Source of the DNA: Mucilaginibacter sp. dw_454
GTDB taxonomy: Bacteria; Bacteroidota; Bacteroidia; Sphingobacteriales; Sphingobacteriaceae
Assembly: GCF_018449775.1 (NCBI RefSeq)
Contig: NZ_JAAVVB010000001.1
Span: 1,054,001 to 1,118,000, forward strand
DNA length: 64,000 bases
Direction: 5' to 3'
Shown here: piece by piece, positions 41,982 through 49,760 of the stretch
How the letters are laid out: the number at the start of each line of letters is the position of its first letter
Position numbering within the stretch: the stretch's first letter is position 1
Position numbers and translations under genes: made by a program
Notes under the pieces: model-generated
What the model saw: the letters and a program-made list of their open reading frames with translations, nothing else
Database searches by the model: none
What the model was told of the DNA's origin: nothing

Positions 41982-41989
41982 TATATTTG
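41982..41989 (+). promoter_or_regulatory. -7 box TATATTTG of SRP RNA gene
   Basis: TATATTTG fully matches TAnnTTTG and ends 4 bases before the first paired base of the SRP RNA (41994), exactly where a transcription start is expected. No TTG is seen 20 bases upstream. Confidence 0.6.
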
Positions 41990-41993
41990 CGGC

Positions 41994-42090
41994 GGGTAAG
42001 TCTTTTACGGCCAGCTCCTCTTGAACTCCCCCAGGGTGGGAACGCAGCAAGGGTAGAGAGTTGAGCGGCGCGATAAAAGTAGCTTACCCA
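41994..42090 (+). ncRNA. ffs: Signal recognition particle RNA (4.5S type)
   Basis: The segment carries the universally conserved apical SRP domain: CCCAGGGTGGGAACGCAGCA then AGGGTA, with the GGAA tetraloop. The ends pair (GGGTAAG at 41994-42000 with CTTACCC at 42083-42089), and GCCAGCTC pairs with GAGCGGC further in, giving one long irregular hairpin of about 97 bases, the size of the bacterial 4.5S RNA. It binds Ffh to target membrane proteins. T runs (42091-42096, 42103-42111) follow as terminator. It lies in the 327-base gap after the sulfotransferase gene. Confidence 0.93.
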
Positions 42091-42193
42091 TTTTTTGTGC
42101 CTTTTTTTTTACAAAACACTTGCAAATCAGCCGATTTGTGTTTAAATTTAATCAGCAATTATTTGTTTCACAATAAATTTCGGAGGGTTAACC

Positions 42194-42559: not shown

Positions 42560-43519
42560 CTCGATCTACTTATTATCGGCGGTGGCCCAATTGGTATAGC
42601 TTGCGGTTTAAAAGCGCAAAAGGCAGGTTTAAGTTTCATAATTATTGAAAAAGGCTGCCTGGTAAACTCGTTATACAACTACCCCGCTACTATGACATTT
42701 TTCTCTACTTCAGAGAAATTGGAGATTGGCAACATACCTTTTGTAACCATCAGCAATAAACCTACACGTGCCGAGGCTTTGGAGTATTATCGCCGTGTAG
42801 CAACATCGAATAATTTGCCTATCAATTTATTTGAAGATGTAACGGCTTTAACACGCGACGGTGAAGGTTACACCATCGTTACCAACAAAGACACTTACCA
42901 GGCTAAACGCGTTATTATATCCACCGGATTTTATGATGTCGCCGTAAATCTGGATATTCCTGGCGAAGACCTGCCTAAAGTAAAACATTACTACAAAGAC
43001 CCTCACTTTTTTGCCATGCAGAAAGTAGTTGTGGTAGGTTCAAGTAACTCGGCTATTGATGTGGCCTTGGAGACTTATCGTAAAGGTGCTGACGTTACGT
43101 TGGTTATTCGTGGCGGTGAGATCAGCCATAGGGTAAAATACTGGGTGCGGCCCGACATTATTAACCGCATTAAAGAAGGCAGCATTAAAGCCTATTTTAA
43201 TTCAAACCTTAAGGCTGTTCGCGAACACGACGTGGACATTGAAACACCAGATGGCCTGGTTACTATTCCTAATGATTTTGTGATGGCGATGACCGGTTAC
43301 AAGCCAAATTTTGATCAGTTAAAAAAATGGGGATTGATTTTATCTGACGATAAATTCATCCCTCAATACAATCCTGATACCATGGAAACCAACCTGCCGG
43401 GCCTGTATTTAGCCGGTGTAGTTTGCGGCGGGTTAGATACGCATTTATGGTTCATAGAAAACTCGCGCATTCATGCTGATATGATTGTAGATGATATTGT
43501 ATCTAGGCGCCGGGTATAA
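42557..43519 (+). CDS. ypdA: YpdA-like FAD/NADPH disulfide reductase
   Basis: The 320-residue flavoprotein resembles bacillithiol disulfide reductase: IIGGGPIGIACGLKAQKAG (FAD site), YNYPATMTFFSTSEKLEIG, an NADPH site VVVVGSSNSAIDVALETY, and a C-terminal FAD motif GLYLAGVVCGGLDTHLW. It lacks the CxxC pair of thioredoxin reductase, as YpdA does. It would reduce a low-molecular-weight thiol disulfide; whether this organism makes bacillithiol is not shown here. The start codon is inside a palindrome. Confidence 0.85.
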   Translation: MLDLLIIGGGPIGIACGLKAQKAGLSFIIIEKGCLVNSLYNYPATMTFFSTSEKLEIGNIPFVTISNKPTRAEALEYYRRVATSNNLPINLFEDVTALTRDGEGYTIVTNKDTYQAKRVIISTGFYDVAVNLDIPGEDLPKVKHYYKDPHFFAMQKVVVVGSSNSAIDVALETYRKGADVTLVIRGGEISHRVKYWVRPDIINRIKEGSIKAYFNSNLKAVREHDVDIETPDGLVTIPNDFVMAMTGYKPNFDQLKKWGLILSDDKFIPQYNPDTMETNLPGLYLAGVVCGGLDTHLWFIENSRIHADMIVDDIVSRRRV

Positions 43520-43906
43520 AGCCCTCAGTCCTAAGTTAAAAAACCGCAGATTACCAGCTTTTGACTCCAGACTAACAGTATCACGTCATTAAATCAAATT
43601 TTCCTTGCATAAATAAAAATTAATGCAAACTTTTGCATCAAATTTTAAATAAAGCAACAATCTATCAAAATGATACTGCAAACCTTAAATAAGCCCACTG
43701 TTAGAGCATGTTCTGCTCCGGTTGCCGCTGCTTTGGTTCTGGCTGTTTTATTTATCCCATCACGACGAAGGCTGTATATGCCACGGGTTTAATTACCGGC
43801 ACTTCTATTGCCCGTCTACAGAAGTTATTTAAAACTTCTTCATCAAAAAAATCATTAATTACTAAAGGCTCAGGCCAATTTTTAACGGTAATTTTTTCTA
43901 TTTACA
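43520..43906 (+). promoter_or_regulatory. Leader region of the arginine operon
   Basis: This 387-base gap has three parts. Bases 43523-43590 are a short-word intergenic stretch (CAGTCCTAAG, CAGATTACC, GACTCCAGACT). Bases 43605-43638 hold three TTGCAT half-sites, the last two forming the palindrome ATGCAAA-CT-TTTGCAT (43623-43638), a candidate operator. From 43670 follows a 40-codon frame with an Arg-Arg-Arg run, then a pair of mutually exclusive hairpins (43801-43806/43820-43825 and 43820-43826/43833-43839). A long-range pairing (43791-43798 with 43886-43893) is followed by a T run at 43892-43897. The arrangement fits an amino-acid-responsive attenuator. Confidence 0.5.
43670..43792 (+). CDS. 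Candidate arginine leader peptide (40 residues)
   Basis: An ATG at 43670 opens a 40-codon frame ending TAA at 43790-43792. The peptide starts MILQTLNKPTVRACSAP, has a hydrophobic run (VAAALVLAVLF) and ends IPSRRRLYMPRV: five Arg in 40 residues, three of them consecutive at codons 32-34, with codons CGA CGA AGG. It lies just before the competing hairpins and upstream of the first arginine-biosynthesis gene. An overlapping frame from 43708 exists in another phase. A chance frame cannot be excluded. Confidence 0.4.
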   Translation: MILQTLNKPTVRACSAPVAAALVLAVLFIPSRRRLYMPRV

Positions 43907-44557
43907 ATGACTATACAAGATTTCGATATACAGGTTGCTACAGCACAGCATGTAGACTACGCCCCGCTCATTACCGATGAGATGGCTGAGTCGGCAAAGG
44001 CACGTGGTACCGGTATAGCACAACGTACACCAGAATATGTCGCCAGCAAAATGCTGGAGGGCAAGGCGGTAATAGCGCTACATAAAGACGGCACCTGGGC
44101 CGGATTTTGCTACATAGAAACCTGGAGCCATGGCGATTTCGTGGCCAACTCGGGCCTGATCGTAGCACCCCAGTTTAGAAAAGCAGGCTTGGCTAAGGCT
44201 ATTAAGCATAAAATATTTGAACTTTCGCGCACCAAATATCCTGAGGCAAAGCTATTTGGCTTAACCACGGGGTTAGCTGTTATGAAGATTAACTCTGAAT
44301 TGGGCTACGAGCCAGTTACTTATTCAGAATTAACCCAGGACGAAGATTTCTGGAAAGGCTGCAGGAGTTGCGTCAACTACGATATCCTGACCATGAAGGA
44401 ACGTAAAAATTGCATGTGTACCGCTATGTTGTTCGACCCGGTTGAGAAGGCTAAAGATGCTGAGTTGCAAAAGCAAGAGAATCTGGAGAAAATGACTAAG
44501 AAAGCGACACTGTTCGAACGGATAGAAAGCGCTATAAAAAGCTTCGGTCAACATTAA
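43907..44557 (+). CDS. GNAT N-acyltransferase, likely glutamate N-acylation (arg pathway)
   Basis: This 216-residue GNAT-fold protein is the first gene of the arginine block, where it probably N-acetylates or N-succinylates glutamate (the ArgA step). The acetyl-CoA site is seen in GLIVAPQFRKAGLAKAIKHK (residues 83-102; RxxGLA-type loop). After the GNAT core come four cysteines (C152, C155, C169, C171; GCRSCVNYD and NCMCTAM), which look like a small zinc-binding element not usual in GNAT enzymes. A helical tail ends the protein. The assignment to glutamate is from context. Confidence 0.78.
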   Translation: MTIQDFDIQVATAQHVDYAPLITDEMAESAKARGTGIAQRTPEYVASKMLEGKAVIALHKDGTWAGFCYIETWSHGDFVANSGLIVAPQFRKAGLAKAIKHKIFELSRTKYPEAKLFGLTTGLAVMKINSELGYEPVTYSELTQDEDFWKGCRSCVNYDILTMKERKNCMCTAMLFDPVEKAKDAELQKQENLEKMTKKATLFERIESAIKSFGQH

Positions 44558-44992
44558 TAAGCTAAAAGACTAAAGCTAAAAGCAGAAAGCTAAAAACTGA
44601 TGAGAGATTTTAGGAAATTAGAAGTTTGGAAAAAAGCACATAACCTAAATTTGTTTGTGTACTTGAACCTGCTGCCTAAATTTCCCAAAAGTGAGCAGTT
44701 TGATATGCTAAGTCAGACAAAACGTGCAGCATATTCAATTCCATTAAATGTTGTGGAGGGAAGTGGCAGATTTACTGAGAAGGATTTCGCTCATTTTTTA
44801 GATATGGCGCTAGGATCTGCTCATGAATTAGAATACTGCTGTCTTTTATGCAAGGATTTATCTTACATAGACGAGGAATTATTTAACAATACTAATAATC
44901 TTATTAACGAAGTAAAAGCCATGTTAATTGGCTTGATTAAAAAAATAAGAGAGTAAAAAGCTTTGGTCTTTTTGCTTTCTGCTTTCAGCTTA
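44558..44992. repeat. S23-like gene bracketed by 34-base inverted repeats
   Basis: The left arm 44558-44591 (TAAGCTAAAAGACTAAAGCT then AAAAGCAGAAAGCT) and right arm 44959-44992 are imperfect inverted copies; by hand 26 of 34 positions match. They enclose the whole four-helix-bundle gene. The element begins right after the GNAT stop codon and ends 3 bases before the argG start, so it looks inserted between two genes that would otherwise adjoin. The layout matches 23S rRNA intervening sequences, which carry an S23 gene between the arms of a stem. No target-site duplication is visible. Confidence 0.7.
44600..44956 (+). CDS. Four-helix-bundle protein (S23/23S rRNA IVS family)
   Basis: The 118-residue all-helical protein is of the family encoded in 23S rRNA intervening sequences: FRKLEVWKKAHNLNLFVYLN (residues 4-23), SQTKRAAYSIPLNVVEGSGR (41-60) and ALGSAHELEYCCLLCKDL. 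The fold is also used by Avd proteins of diversity-generating retroelements; no reverse transcriptase is nearby. Function is unknown. It interrupts the arginine operon inside inverted repeats. Confidence 0.9.
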   Translation: MRDFRKLEVWKKAHNLNLFVYLNLLPKFPKSEQFDMLSQTKRAAYSIPLNVVEGSGRFTEKDFAHFLDMALGSAHELEYCCLLCKDLSYIDEELFNNTNNLINEVKAMLIGLIKKIRE

Positions 44993-44995
44993 TAT

Positions 44996-46192
44996 ATGGA
45001 AAAGAAAAAAGTAGTTTTAGCGTATAGCGGAGGTTTAGACACCTCATTTTGTTGTATATACTTAACCCGCGATTTGGGTTATGAAGTGCATTCGGTTATT
45101 GTAAACACCGGCGGTTTTAGCGACGAAGAGTTGGCTCTGGTTGAAAAACGTGCTTACGAAATGGGGGTTACCTCACACCATGTGGTTGACGAAACCGAAA
45201 ACTTTTACAATACCTGCGTACGCTACTTAATTTATGGCAACGTATTAAAAAACAACACTTATCCATTATCTGTAAGTGCCGAACGTGTTAGTCAGGCTAC
45301 TGCCATTGCCAATTATGCCAAAGAAATCGGTGCCGAGTTTGTTGCTCATGGTAGCACCGGGGCCGGTAATGACCAGGTTAGGTTTGATATGATCTTTAAT
45401 ATTCTGATCCCTAATGTAGGTATCATCACTCCTATCCGTGATTTGAAATTGAGTCGCGAGGCAGAAATTGAATACTTGAAAAAACATGGTGTGGAGATGA
45501 ACTTTGAGAAAGCCAAATACTCAATCAACAAAGGTATCTGGGGCACATCGGTTGGTGGTAAAGAAACCTTAACCTCAAACTTAGGCATGCCTGAAGAGGC
45601 ATGGCCTACACAAGTAACAGCTACCGAAAAAAGAAATATCGAACTAACTTTTGAAAAAGGTGAACTGATTGCGCTTGACGGTAAAAAATATAATAGCCCT
45701 ACCCAGATTATTCAAGAACTGCAAGCTATTGCCCAGCCTTATGGTGTAGGTAGAGATATTCATGTCGGCGACACCATCATAGGTATAAAGGGCCGCGTGG
45801 GTTTTGAGGCTGCAGCGCCAATGATCATTATTAAAGCGCATCATACTTTAGAGAAGCATACGCTAACCAAATGGCAGTTAACCTGGAAAGATCAATTGTC
45901 TATGTTCTACGGCAACTGGCTACATGAGGGTCAATTCCATGATCCTATTATGCGTAATATGGAAGCCTTCCTTACTGATACGCAAAAACAGGTTAGTGGT
46001 AAAGTATTTATTGAATTGCAGCCTTACAGGTTCCAAATTATAGGTATTGAATCTGATCATGATTTGATGTCGAACAAATTTGGTAGCTATGGTGAGATGA
46101 ACAATGCCTGGAGCGGCGAGGATGTTAAAGGCTTCTCCAAAATATTTGGTAACCAGGTGATGATCTATCACAAAGTTAACGGCGGCGAATAG
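44996..46192 (+). CDS. argG: Argininosuccinate synthase
   Basis: This enzyme joins citrulline and aspartate with ATP. The N-terminal ATP loop is VVLAYSGGLDTSFCCIYL. Other signatures are EFVAHGSTGAGNDQVRFD and the C-terminal domain with GRVGFEAAAPMIIIKAHHTLEKH. The start is the ATG at 44996 (MEKKKVVLAYSGG); the longer frame from 44963 lies in the repeat arm. The 398-residue length is standard. The stop is directly followed by the next ATG, so it is tightly coupled to the cupin gene. Confidence 0.96.
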   Translation: MEKKKVVLAYSGGLDTSFCCIYLTRDLGYEVHSVIVNTGGFSDEELALVEKRAYEMGVTSHHVVDETENFYNTCVRYLIYGNVLKNNTYPLSVSAERVSQATAIANYAKEIGAEFVAHGSTGAGNDQVRFDMIFNILIPNVGIITPIRDLKLSREAEIEYLKKHGVEMNFEKAKYSINKGIWGTSVGGKETLTSNLGMPEEAWPTQVTATEKRNIELTFEKGELIALDGKKYNSPTQIIQELQAIAQPYGVGRDIHVGDTIIGIKGRVGFEAAAPMIIIKAHHTLEKHTLTKWQLTWKDQLSMFYGNWLHEGQFHDPIMRNMEAFLTDTQKQVSGKVFIELQPYRFQIIGIESDHDLMSNKFGSYGEMNNAWSGEDVKGFSKIFGNQVMIYHKVNGGE

Positions 46193-46543
46193 ATGAACAC
46201 GATATTCTCAAAGAGCGAATGTTTAGAACATTATACCTGGGGCGATGATTGCCACGGATGGATCTTTGTGGATACGGACGCCTTATCGGTTAAACAAGAG
46301 CTGATGCCGCCAGATACTGCCGAAAAGTTGCATTATCATGAGCAGGCGACCCAGTTTTTCTACATCATGAACGGCAGGGCGAAATTCACTGTTGACGGTG
46401 AGGTCATCGAACTAAGAGAACAGCAGGCTATTCAGATTGACCCCATGCAGCAACATTCAATAGCCAATCATCAGCATACGGACCTGGAATTTTTAGTATA
46501 TTCTTATCCATCGACAAAAAATGACAGAATTGAAATCAAATAA
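46193..46543 (+). CDS. Cupin-domain protein in arginine operon
   Basis: This 116-residue single cupin has the first metal motif KLHYHEQATQFFYIMNGRAKF and a second motif around DPMQQHSIANHQHTDLEFLVY. It could be an isomerase-like or sensor cupin; no substrate can be named. It starts at the base after the argG stop and overlaps argC by 23 bases, so it is fixed in the operon. Confidence 0.82.
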   Translation: MNTIFSKSECLEHYTWGDDCHGWIFVDTDALSVKQELMPPDTAEKLHYHEQATQFFYIMNGRAKFTVDGEVIELREQQAIQIDPMQQHSIANHQHTDLEFLVYSYPSTKNDRIEIK

Positions 46544-47519
46544 AGTAAAAGCAGGCATTATAGGTGGAGCGGGTTATACCGGCGGCGAAATGCTGCGGAT
46601 TTTGGTAAACCATCCCGATGTTGAAATAGCTTTTGTACATAGCAACAGCAACGCCGGCAATTATTTATACGAAGTACATACCGATTTATTTGGCGATACC
46701 GAGCAAAAATTCACTGGCGAGTTGTCGACTGATATCGATGTGCTTTTTCTTTGTGTAGGTCATGGCGATGCTAAGAAGTTTTTAGATGCAAATCCTATCC
46801 CGGATAATGTTAAAATTATCGACCTGAGCCAGGATTTCAGGTTAAATGCTAACGCTCAACTAGGAAGTAAAACCTTTGTTTATGGTTTGCCTGAGTTAAA
46901 CAGAGACGCTATCAAATCGGCACAAAACGTGGCTAATCCGGGTTGTTTTGCAACTACTATTCAGTTGGGATTATTGCCATTAGCCTCGATAAGCAAATTG
47001 GATAAAGAAGTTCATATTTCGGCAACTACGGGATCTACAGGCGCTGGACAAAGTCTTGCTCCTACTTCGCACTTTACCTGGAGAAATGATAACCTATCGG
47101 TTTATAAAGTTTTCGGTCACCAGCATTTGAATGAGATTGGCGAATCTTTAAAGCAATTACAGCCTGCTTTCGCGCAGCCCATAAGCTTTGTGCCTTACCG
47201 GGGCGATTTTACCCGTGGTATTTTTGCTTCTATTTACATGGATAGTGATTTGACCGAGGCTGAAGCTTTAAAACTGTATGAGGATTTTTATGCCGGTCAC
47301 CCGTTTACGCATGTAACCAGCCATAACATCGACCTAAAACAGGTGGTTAACACCAATAAGGTTTTTTTACAAGTTAAAAAATATGATAATAAGCTTTTCA
47401 TTATCAGCATGTTAGATAATTTACTGAAAGGCGCATCTGGTCAAGCGGTTCAAAACATGAACTTAATGTTTGGCTTAGATGAGCGCGCAGGTCTTCGACT
47501 TAAGGCGACCGGATTTTAA
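46521..47519 (+). CDS. argC: N-acyl-glutamyl-phosphate reductase
   Basis: This NADPH-dependent enzyme makes N-acylglutamate semialdehyde from the acyl phosphate. The NADPH loop is GIIGGAGYTGGEMLRIL (residues 12-28) and the catalytic Cys142 is in NPGCFATTIQLGLLPL; SATTGSTGAGQSLAPTSHF and VPYRGDFTRGIFAS follow. The 332-residue length is typical of type 1 ArgC. The start overlaps the cupin gene by 23 bases; no later ATG fits before the NADPH loop. Confidence 0.95.
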   Translation: MTELKSNKVKAGIIGGAGYTGGEMLRILVNHPDVEIAFVHSNSNAGNYLYEVHTDLFGDTEQKFTGELSTDIDVLFLCVGHGDAKKFLDANPIPDNVKIIDLSQDFRLNANAQLGSKTFVYGLPELNRDAIKSAQNVANPGCFATTIQLGLLPLASISKLDKEVHISATTGSTGAGQSLAPTSHFTWRNDNLSVYKVFGHQHLNEIGESLKQLQPAFAQPISFVPYRGDFTRGIFASIYMDSDLTEAEALKLYEDFYAGHPFTHVTSHNIDLKQVVNTNKVFLQVKKYDNKLFIISMLDNLLKGASGQAVQNMNLMFGLDERAGLRLKATGF

Positions 47520-47578
47520 ACCGACAGCCACAGCGGAACCTTTATTCACTAATTATCTAAATTTTAACAATTAATAAT

Positions 47579-48706
47579 ATGAAACCGTTCGACGTATATC
47601 CTATCAATCCCATCAACATAGTAAAAGGCCGGGGAAGCCTGGTTTATGATGATAAAGGACAAGAATATCTGGACCTATATGGTGGTCACGCTGTAATATC
47701 TATCGGCCATACTCACCCTCATTACGTAAAAAGACTGGAAGACCAATTACACCAATTAGGCTTCTATTCAAACTCTATAGAGATACCAATCCAAAAAGAG
47801 CTAGCCGAGAAGCTAGGCCATGTATCGGGTAAAGAAAACTACCAGTTATTCTTGATCAACTCCGGTGCAGAAGCCGATGAGAATGCATTGAAACTGGCAT
47901 CGTTTTATAATGGCAAAAAGAAGGTAATAGCCTTCACAGGCGCTTTTCACGGCCGTACTTCTCTGGCGGTTGCGGTTACTGATAATCCAAAGATAGTAGC
48001 CCCGATTAATGAAACAGATAATGTGATTAGGTTACCGTGGGCTGATGAGGCTGCTTTAGAACAAGCTTTTGCTGATCATGATGATATCTCATCAGTAATT
48101 ATTGAAGGTATTCAAGGCGTAGGCGGCATACAGGTTGCGCCGGAAAGCTTCCTGCAAAAGATCAGATCGCTCTGCGACACACATAACGCGGTATTTATTG
48201 CAGATTCGGTACAATGCGGTTACGGCCGTACAGGTAAGTTCTATTCGCACGATTTTGCTGGTGTTGATGCAGACATTTACACCATGGCTAAGGGCATGGG
48301 CAATGGCTTCCCCATTGGTGCAATCAGCATCGCTCCAAAATTCCATGCTGTCTACGGCATGCTGGGTACTACTTTTGGCGGTAATCATTTAGCTTGCGCG
48401 GCGGCTTTAGCTGTGTTGGAAGTTATTGAACAACATAACTTGATGCAAAACGCTGCTGAAGTGGGTGGTTATTTAATTGAAGAGTTAAAGAAGTTTAAAC
48501 AGGTTACCGAAGTTAGAGGACGTGGTTTAATGATCGGCATTGATTTACCTGCTGAATATGCTAATGCTAAAAAAGACTTATTATTTAAACATCATATCTT
48601 TACCGGCGAAGCTAAACCAAATGTGATCAGGCTGTTGCCTGCTTTAAATTTAACTAAAGCACATGCTGATCAATTTTTAGAGGCTTTTAATGCTGTATTG
48701 AAATAA
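47579..48706 (+). CDS. argD: N-acylornithine aminotransferase
   Basis: This PLP enzyme moves an amino group from glutamate to N-acylglutamate semialdehyde. It has LFLINSGAEADENALKLA, the PLP-site Asp209 in VFIADSVQCGYGRTGKF, and the Schiff-base lysine K238 in YTMAKGMGNGFPIGA. The 375-residue length fits ArgD. Whether it prefers acetyl- or succinyl-ornithine cannot be told. It follows argC by 59 bases and is separated from the carbamoyltransferase gene by a palindromic repeat. Confidence 0.94.
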   Translation: MKPFDVYPINPINIVKGRGSLVYDDKGQEYLDLYGGHAVISIGHTHPHYVKRLEDQLHQLGFYSNSIEIPIQKELAEKLGHVSGKENYQLFLINSGAEADENALKLASFYNGKKKVIAFTGAFHGRTSLAVAVTDNPKIVAPINETDNVIRLPWADEAALEQAFADHDDISSVIIEGIQGVGGIQVAPESFLQKIRSLCDTHNAVFIADSVQCGYGRTGKFYSHDFAGVDADIYTMAKGMGNGFPIGAISIAPKFHAVYGMLGTTFGGNHLACAAALAVLEVIEQHNLMQNAAEVGGYLIEELKKFKQVTEVRGRGLMIGIDLPAEYANAKKDLLFKHHIFTGEAKPNVIRLLPALNLTKAHADQFLEAFNAVLK

Positions 48707-48717
48707 GAAATAAATAC

Positions 48718-48792
48718 TGTCATTTCGTCCAACGGGAGAAATCTTATATCAAGTCGCTTGCATAAGATTTCTCACTACGTTTCGAAATGACA
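48718..48792. repeat. REP-like palindromic element
   Basis: The left arm 48718-48747 and right arm 48762-48792 pair over the outer TGTCATTTCG (10 bp) and inner GAGAAATCTTAT (12 bp), with an unpaired 7-8 base bulge between them and a 14-base loop. Elements reading TGTCATTTCG...GAGAAATCT are a familiar intergenic repeat type in related Bacteroidota genomes. It lies between argD and the carbamoyltransferase gene, so it would be transcribed within the operon. Confidence 0.8.
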
Positions 48793-48809
48793 AACGATAT
48801 ATTGAGACC

Positions 48810-49760
48810 ATGAAACTATTTTCTTCCGTAAACGACGTAACCGATATAAACGCACTTGTTGCCGAGGGCCTGGAACTTAAAAAGAACCCGTACGCGCATC
48901 AGCATCTGGGTAAAAACAAAACTTTAGGATTGGTATTTCTTAATCCAAGCTTACGTACCCGCATGAGCACCCAAAAAGCTGCTCTTAACCTGGGCATGAA
49001 TGTCATGGTGTTAAACATCGATAAAGAAGGCTGGGCCTTAGAGCTGCGCGATAATGTGGTAATGAACGGCGCGACTGTCGAGCATATCCGCGAGGCTGCC
49101 GGTGTTATGGGTCAGTATGTTGATATATTGGGTGTACGTTCTTTTCCGGGCTTGACCGACCGTGAAGAAGATTATACCGAAGTGATCTTTAATAAGTTTG
49201 TTGAGTTTTGCGGTGTTCCGGTGGTGAGTTTGGAATCAGCCACCCGCCACCCTTTACAAAGCCTGGCCGATTTGATTACTATTGAAGAATTAAAGACCCG
49301 TCAGCGCCCAAAAGTGGTGTTAACCTGGGCTCCGCACATAAAACCATTACCTCAGGCAGTACCAAATTCATTTGCCGAATGGATGTGTAAAGCCGACGTT
49401 GATTTTGTGATCGCGCACCCTGCCGGTTATGAATTGAGTACTGATTTTACTCACGGCGCTACAATCACCCAAAGTCAAGACGAAGCCCTTGCAGATGCAG
49501 ATTTTATTTACGTAAAAAACTGGTCGGCTTTTGAGCCTTATGGGCAAATATTTGGAGGTAACGAAGACTGGATGCTTACTAACGACAGACTAAAGATCAC
49601 CAACAAAGCTAAAGTAATGCATTGCCTGCCTGTACGCCGCGATTTGGAGCTGTCTGCCGAGGTTTTAGACGGCCCAAGCTCAATTGTTGTACATGAGGCT
49701 GCTAATCGTGTATGGGCTGCGCAAGCTGTATTAAAGCAGATGCTGGAGCGGTTGCAATAG
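48810..49760 (+). CDS. N-acyl-L-ornithine carbamoyltransferase (B. fragilis ArgF-prime type)
   Basis: This carbamoylates N-acylornithine, not free ornithine. Carbamoyl-phosphate motifs are FLNPSLRTRMSTQKA (residues 43-57) and ESATRHPLQSLADLITIEE. Acyl-ornithine-type features are WAPHIKPLPQAVPNSFAEWM and the HCLPVRRDLELS segment. The 316-residue length is right. At position 90, where the X. campestris N-acetyl enzyme has Glu (its E92) and the B. fragilis N-succinyl enzyme has Pro (P90), this protein has Val (NGATVEH), so the acyl group used is open. Confidence 0.92.
   Translation: MKLFSSVNDVTDINALVAEGLELKKNPYAHQHLGKNKTLGLVFLNPSLRTRMSTQKAALNLGMNVMVLNIDKEGWALELRDNVVMNGATVEHIREAAGVMGQYVDILGVRSFPGLTDREEDYTEVIFNKFVEFCGVPVVSLESATRHPLQSLADLITIEELKTRQRPKVVLTWAPHIKPLPQAVPNSFAEWMCKADVDFVIAHPAGYELSTDFTHGATITQSQDEALADADFIYVKNWSAFEPYGQIFGGNEDWMLTNDRLKITNKAKVMHCLPVRRDLELSAEVLDGPSSIVVHEAANRVWAAQAVLKQMLERLQ

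Follow-up and report, generated by a model that had tools for sequence, protein, structure and literature searches.

Bacterial control of arginine synthesis is known mainly through ArgR, and the locus described here raises the question of what could govern an arginine cluster in a genome in which no ArgR is found. Ahead of this cluster, the window (the whole stretch of 64,000 nucleotides that was analysed) carries a short open reading frame with Arg codons close to its stop, followed by a series of RNA hairpins (Table 1). Comparison with related genomes leads us to regard this region as probably an arginine-responsive attenuator of the leader-peptide type, acting in cis on the GNAT-argG-argC-argD-argF' cluster. 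The sensor side of such an attenuator appears well supported by these comparisons, whereas the output side is not. The putative device recurs in all Sphingobacteriaceae genera read, where genomes lack ArgR, and would provide both a test bed for the coupling of translation to gene control in Bacteroidota, which rarely rely on Shine-Dalgarno pairing, and a guide to annotating missed small ORFs.

Table 1. Features of the putative arginine leader and the cluster behind it, in window coordinates
Feature	Position	Strand	Basis or remarks
Promoter-like region	43605..43636	+	-33 type TTG 43605-43607, -7 type TTTTGC 43631-43636
Leader peptide ORF	43670..43792	+	ATG, 40 codons, TAA; MILQTLNKPTVRACSAPVAAALVLAVLFIPSRRRLYMPRV, then stop
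Control codons CGA CGA AGG (RRR)	43763..43771	+	first two are CGA at every genus locus used
P-R-V-stop codons	43781..43792	+	5' strand of P2; in other family genera, 5' strand of the stop-spanning hairpin
Helix P2	43783..43815	+	43783-43788 with 43810-43815
Hairpin H1 (earlier pairing 2)	43820..43839	+	fold z against shuffles
Hairpin H2	43857..43893	+	AU-rich, GGC/GCC by the loop
GNAT acetyltransferase, first gene of the cluster	43907..44557	+	weak sub-cut-off Pfam GNAT matches; PDB GNAT relatives
argG, cupin gene, argC, argD, carbamoyltransferase argF'	44996..49760	+	NCBIfam

The arginine cluster

Of the genes behind the leader, argG (TIGR00032) and argC (TIGR01850) score over the NCBIfam cut-off, argD and the carbamoyltransferase are each named from their best NCBIfam match, which lies under the cut-off, and the GNAT protein matches no NCBIfam model. 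Both argG and argC follow the GNAT gene in 20/20 genomes examined. The control codons of the leader thus specify Arg, the end product of the downstream pathway, which is the correspondence that marks attenuators of the trp/his type.

Several features of the neighbourhood are recorded here in their own right. The GNAT protein has four invariant Cys, arranged as CxxC ... CxC, across 18 aligned relatives, and these may form a metal site. A second, diverged GNAT copy (51% identity), whose match contains one TAA, lies elsewhere in the window's genome (G000:C16:81827-82363, locus L047), and no Arg-rich leader was found upstream of it. Between the GNAT gene and argG, positions 44600-44956 hold a gene of the 23S rRNA intervening-sequence (four-helix bundle) type, which had no match in six other genus clusters examined. 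In three family clusters (L177, L179, L181) this gene separates argC from argD, so that its place in the arginine cluster seems to shift. A Bacteroidales small SRP RNA (RF04183) lies at 41987-42093, with 99.1 bits against a gathering score of 55.2.

The leader in the genus Mucilaginibacter

The preliminary description of this DNA had reported a 40-codon frame with five Arg and an RRR run at codons 32-34, and the window sequence bears this out exactly, with Arg at codons 12, 32, 33, 34 and 39. Its suggestion that frame and Arg run be looked for in relatives could be followed within the genus, which was assigned as Mucilaginibacter via named relatives. The GNAT gene was present in 45/60 genomes of the first relatives search and in 140/149 genus genomes. 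We fetched 76 genus loci (30 + 6 + 40) and used 74, including the window's own; L006 and L013, whose contigs end upstream, were left out. At all 74 loci an RRR run starts with CGA CGA and is followed in frame by a stop, always at the tenth codon. The run varies in its third codon (AGG 47, CGA 12, CGG 10, AGA 5), and the peptide ends in PRV-stop at 64 of the 74 loci. Since CGA is invariant at the first two codons of the run, yet makes up only 16/200 Arg codons in 18 window genes, the constraint acts at the level of the codon. A pattern for the leader end has 38 matches in 33/60 relatives. Of these, 32 lie at the leader, each in a different genome, and the 6 found in other places equal the number for a reversed control pattern (6); in the window's own genome the single match is at the arginine locus.

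Substitution patterns bear on whether the frame is translated. Over the last 10 leader codons in the genus, pN/pS is 0.37 in frame and 0.29 when CGA CGA is set aside, as compared with 1.60 and 2.04 for the last leader stretch in the +1 and +2 frames; codons 2-23 give 0.69 (31 leaders), and the last 8 codons in the family 0.35 (n = 28). The low in-frame values, set against the shifted frames, therefore indicate that the leader is, by its pattern of substitution, a coding frame, the first property expected of a trp/his-type attenuator. It could be argued that a frame under such purifying selection encodes a small functional protein in which the Arg codons are incidental, but this reading is hardly tenable given that outside the genus the leaders resemble each other just in their final residues, that the position is fixed ahead of one operon, and that the leader has no Pfam match.

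The leader in the family and the class

In the other genera of the family (40 loci), the N-terminus of the leader is unrelated and its Arg-rich end is alike: RRPxxPRx-stop is matched by 25/40 loci, a PR[VA]-stop end occurs in 24, and CGA CGA is kept in 31/40. The nine family loci without CGA CGA (L095, L096, L113, L117, L119, L120, L121, L123, L127) include leaders with PFPRR-stop or AYFPRR-stop ends and a Pedobacter-like SRQxFTPRI-stop group, in which just two separate Arg codons are left in that stretch. In the 28 family leaders whose CGA sits at the corresponding position, the Pro before the last Arg is kept in 28/28 and the last Arg in 27/28, with four codons used for each.

We applied one rule throughout: the ORF had to have 15 codons or more, a stop 75-200 nt upstream of the gene, and no fewer than 3 Arg among its final 12 residues. 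This rule was passed by 33/40 family loci (shuffled mean 1.9). The class sample held 247 genomes, of which 83 have the GNAT gene, 75 of them outside the family, and 49 of these were read; here the rule was passed by 24/38 loci against a shuffled mean of 1.9 and by 7/9 against 0.6, leaving 14/38 and 2/9 that fail, and the passing ORFs of L151, L165 and L167 are unlike the others and may be due to chance. Upstream of GNAT paralogues, 0/5 had such a leader. With a wider stop range (60-330 nt), scored without shuffles, 59/80 loci pass among the best 80 of 589, some of which are genomes also counted in the family and class sets; the passing records include Chitinophaga, Myroides, Sphingobacterium and Cyclobacteriaceae, and in Flavobacterium haoranii no Arg leader was found within this range. 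The leader is thus visible in records of Chitinophagaceae, Flavobacteriaceae and Cyclobacteriaceae, and a leader with Arg codons by its stop, ahead of the arginine cluster, as first proposed for the window, is kept across the genus, the family and part of the class.

In a group of Chitinophagaceae-type loci (L243, L253, L260, L263, L265, L266, L270), the sequence AGGACGA is found directly 3' of the leader stop, and in two of them (L265 and L266) it is complementary to CGTCCTG just 5' of the stop.

RNA hairpins after and across the stop

Across 34 loci, the mean fold z is -1.5 for the stretch from leader to gene and -0.8 for the ORF. Whole-region MAFFT alignments left H1 and the stop hairpin unaligned; for this reason a covariance model was replaced by permutations of hairpin arms, by swaps of arms between neighbouring loci and by arms carried over from neighbours. 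The plain arm permutations ignore kinship, and the p values of the 11 neighbour-swap tests are uncorrected, such that only those of H1 and of the family stop hairpin would pass correction.

Three pairings had been proposed after the leader: 43801-43806 (ACTTCT) with 43820-43825 (AGAAGT), 43820-43826 with 43833-43839, and 43791-43798 (AATTACCG) with 43886-43893 (CGGTAATT). All three are perfect complements in the window, and they differ in how they fare among relatives. The first, thought to be a competing stem, scores at chance in the neighbour swap (14 to 15 of 37, p 0.4) and is rejected. The second corresponds to H1, the best 28-nt hairpin after the leader, with z below -1 at 60/74 loci (mean -2.4) and arms that vary widely; no permutation of its arms in 3000 reaches the native value and its swap p is 4.9e-6, although both figures are biased towards a locus's own arms, which were picked on its own fold. 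With neighbour-derived arms, 12/25 doubly changed positions pair, as against 9/50 in crossed and 6/19 in slid controls. Taken together, these comparisons identify H1 as a conserved hairpin of changing sequence. The third pairing is weak, with 4/3000 in the arm permutation and the own arm better in 19 and the swapped arm better in 10 of 37 pairs (p 0.033 uncorrected). Of the three proposed stems, the second holds, the third is weak and the first fails. The six T said to follow the third pairing do exist as a run at 43892-43897, two of which lie inside the pairing rather than after it; this run overlaps the end of H2, 13 nt before the GNAT start codon.

H2 has a fold z below -1 at 33/74 loci (mean -0.97), an arm permutation of 0/3000 and a swap p of 0.013, both again biased to own arms picked on their own fold; with neighbour-derived arms, 26/50 doubly changed positions pair, against 19/100 crossed and 6/25 slid. 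The support that neighbour-derived arms lend to H1 and H2 may be called modest, and that for P2 is modest as well. P2 pairs the Arg-Val-stop codons with the bases immediately 5' of H1, as GGGUUU with AAACCC in many relatives, and its native energy of -7.38 kcal/mol compares with -6.91 for permuted arms (1/5000 reach it) and -5.45 for a composition-shuffled flank, with a neighbour swap of 18 to 8 of 36 (p 0.0074 uncorrected).

In the other family genera, a different helix is built on the same codons: the Met-Pro-Arg-Val codons pair with bases directly after the stop (-10.27 vs -6.73 in fixed windows at 38 loci, 0/5000 permutations; neighbour swap 16 to 1 of 18, p 0.0005). The third base of the Pro codon is paired at 26/38 loci (CG 12, GC 2, AT 8, TA 4) and the first base of the Arg codon at 31/38 (AT 18, CG 13). 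Synonymous changes in this stop hairpin are thus compensated 3' of the stop, with four Watson-Crick pair types at the Pro third base. The hairpin is not supported in the genus (swap p 0.17), nor outside the family, where 67 class leaders gave 14 to 17 of 33 (p 0.72) in a test whose upstream arm includes the first base of the stop.

Two other candidate structures were set aside. P1, a minor hairpin directly 3' of RRR, lacks support (115/1000 permutations, swap p 0.19), and base pairing between the Arg codons and the GNAT gene amounted to just broad matches in the coding region, roughly +75 to +150, which we attribute to chance (34 loci of L001-L036). Within the ORF, a further candidate hairpin at codons 12-16 was the sole stem that RNAalifold kept on alignment A2, with 5 pairs, 4 of them with two-sided changes, and a rough neighbour swap gave nothing for it (p 0.42).

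Ribosome states and the output of the leader

The attenuator that we favour would work as follows. When Arg-tRNA is short, ribosomes would stall at CGA CGA, leaving the PRV-stop region free, so that P2 could form next to H1 and the operon would be expressed. When arginine is ample, ribosomes would reach the stop and cover the PRV-stop strand, and H2 would then end transcription or block initiation of the GNAT gene. That stalling switches the operon on, and not off, we infer from the biosynthetic role of the cluster.

Folding was computed for each state at 25 C, with the front edge of the ribosome placed 12 nt past the A site. P2 has 5.9 expected pairs with the ribosome stalled at the first CGA and 5.6 in free RNA, and disappears in 72/74 loci once the ribosome is at the stop; contacts between the leader end and the tail are likewise fewer in 49/74, and both of these losses arise by construction, the strand being removed from the fold. 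H2 barely moves, with 13.0 expected pairs in the stalled state, 13.5 at the stop and 12.4 in free RNA, and, the weak signal of the third pairing apart, no strand that competes with H2 stands out in the genus. An antiterminator was also sought there, and pairing of the Arg codons with downstream sequence was at chance (908/1000 permutations reach it), as was that of the RV-stop codons with the last 70 nt (967/1000).

Under a terminator rule of 3 G-C pairs plus T right after the stem, by which an AU-rich terminator would be missed, a canonical terminator was found at 1/74 genus loci against 0.8 in shuffles, and a terminator scan of 43300-44300 gave none. Because the terminator test failed in the genus, the window's copy is not classed as a trp-type transcription attenuator. 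A classical switch between antiterminator and terminator is no more than a candidate here, with 13.0 vs 13.5 expected pairs for H2 and 1/74 vs 0.8 in the scan. As for the layout of ribosome-mediated attenuation that the preliminary description recognised in the window, the translated leader and a conserved hairpin after it stand, and the first pairing as competing stem and the operator fall away.

A realistic possibility, short of likely, is that the same sensor has a translational output, with H2 occluding the GNAT initiation region and, in some genera, CGA-CCN codons pairing just before the start. The end of H2 lies some 10-20 nt ahead of the start codon, and six loci (L029, L035, L085, L086, L088, L090) have no T tract after H2, as would suit such an output. 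Nine family loci show complementarity between CGACCY and RGGTC-like bases before the start, reached by 12/3000 permutations within the set, but this set was chosen because it shows that match, and across the full 38 family loci the swap gives 9 to 6 of 18 (p 0.13). Moreover, the pairing probability before the start is the same across ribosome states, and features of a transcriptional output are enriched: T5 runs before the GNAT gene in the genus (35/74 vs 16.2) and canonical terminators in the family (7/38 loci vs 0.7 shuffled). Complementarity of CGA-CCN to GGGTC- or AGGTC-type bases before the GNAT start was noted at L098, L099, L109, L111, L115, L116, L124 and L129, and is not significant over the whole family.

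The proposed attenuator may also be viewed more widely, in a form that we put forward only tentatively and regard as rather unlikely as a whole. The leader would be an old arginine device of Bacteroidota that fuses codon and RNA, in which CGA CGA, being slow and tRNA-limited, acts as the sensor, and the switch consists of helices on the last codons and stop, readable only with the ribosome off the stop. Such a device would occupy the place that argR has in ArgR-bearing genomes, might add nascent-peptide arrest via PR[V/A/I]-stop, and would have lineage-specific outputs, a terminator in some genera and blocked initiation in others.

Arrest of the nascent peptide could also be the whole explanation, the conserved C-terminus (RRxxxPR[V/A]-stop, SRQxFTPRI-stop, PFFPRR-stop) stalling the ribosome and perhaps sensing arginine, an account that we consider quite improbable. 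The end of the leader shows amino-acid and codon constraints both, and it is the former that speak for arrest: selection on the last codons persists at the amino-acid level without CGA CGA (pN/pS 0.29), Pro (28/28) and Arg (27/28) are kept in the family while their codons vary, and some Arg-poor leaders keep PRI-stop. The invariant CGA CGA, however, is a constraint on codons and not on the peptide, the peptide motif shifts between lineages while the Arg codons stay, and the conservation of Pro-Arg in the family is partly explained by the stop-spanning RNA hairpin.

ArgR, the palindrome and the promoter region

The window's genome (G000, 99.9% complete in 19 contigs) gave 0 matches to ArgR (PF01316), as compared with matches in 9/14 control genomes. 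Of the 247 class genomes, 14 match PF01316, 11 of them over the cut-off, and 7 of these 11 also have a GNAT match. In six of the seven (G312, G352, G385, G416, G446, G474), a comparison of coordinates places argR directly upstream of GNAT: the ArgR domain shares the strand of the GNAT match and lies some 290-350 nt ahead of it, a gap that fits little beyond the remainder of argR; in the seventh, G441, the match is borderline and lies on another contig. An Arg leader was present in 0/2 of the argR-adjacent upstream regions read, out of the six. On these few cases, ArgR and the leader look like alternatives at one place. Most class genomes sampled have neither ArgR nor, necessarily, the GNAT gene.

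The promoter-like region in Table 1 is read by a -33/-7 scheme that we take to be the Bacteroidetes promoter consensus. TTTGC of the -7 type is found upstream at 74/74 genus loci and a -33/-7-like pair at 52/74; a sigma-70-type promoter scan of 43300-44300 gave none at 43605-43640. The palindrome ATGCAAA-CT-TTTGCAT at 43623-43638, which had been taken for an operator, overlaps this region. Its exact form occurs at 8/74 genus loci and a looser TGCAA-N2-4-TTGCA at 27/74, so that, with no PF01316 match in the genome and a palindrome that is not conserved, the ArgR operator is rejected. Control mainly by a repressor at the palindrome, to which its presence and the looser form at other loci might lend some credit, is the least probable reading of all, as the genome has no ArgR, the exact form is rare, and the conserved half is the -7 type TTTGC itself.

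Comparison with known systems

The trp, his, leu, phe and thr operons are controlled by leader-peptide (ribosome-mediated) attenuators. The arginine leader resembles the trp/his type in its order of parts, a short leader rich in codons for the amino acid of the pathway, then RNA hairpins, then a biosynthetic operon. It differs in that the amino acid is arginine, that the control codons are C-terminal, within ten codons of the stop, that the helices are built on the last codons and the stop, that no exchange of antiterminator and terminator emerged from the comparisons, and that by the scan the genus has no canonical terminator.

In the fungal arginine attenuator peptide and in bacterial TnaC, a free amino acid is sensed via the nascent chain, and ribosomes stall when it is abundant. 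These systems and the arginine leader have in common that a short upstream peptide exerts amino-acid-dependent control close to its stop, whereas the codon-level signature of the latter points to tRNA charging.

Within Bacteroidota, the Bacteroid-trp RNA is reportedly a Trp-codon leader, and its name, unlike the arginine leader, points to tryptophan. It is described as a candidate structured RNA of Bacteroidetes (RF01692; Weinberg 2010, PMC2864571). Neither this family nor any other in Rfam, T-box and riboswitches included, matched window positions 43500-44000 at E up to 1, and 15 family and class loci gave no match at gathering scores. In Flavobacterium psychrophilum, a member of the same phylum, operons for amino-acid biosynthesis have been described as showing strong signs of leader-peptide attenuation in their upstream regions, with pheA and hisG, and no arginine operon, among the conserved 5' elements in the main-text section of that study (PMC9723704). 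The general idea of leader-peptide attenuation in the phylum is therefore already in print (PMC9723704). In the open-licence literature, supplements aside, we found no leader-peptide attenuator of arginine biosynthesis in Bacteroidota, in line with the preliminary remark that none was known in the family, and the device is absent from Rfam.

A parallel on the sensor side is rbfL of Staphylococcus aureus, a leader peptide whose rare Arg codons serve to sense arginine limitation (PMC13009471). Arginine would thus be sensed by leader Arg codons in both systems; in rbfL, however, stalling has a repressive effect because it masks the rbf ribosome binding site, and the target is a biofilm regulator and not arginine synthesis (PMC13009471).
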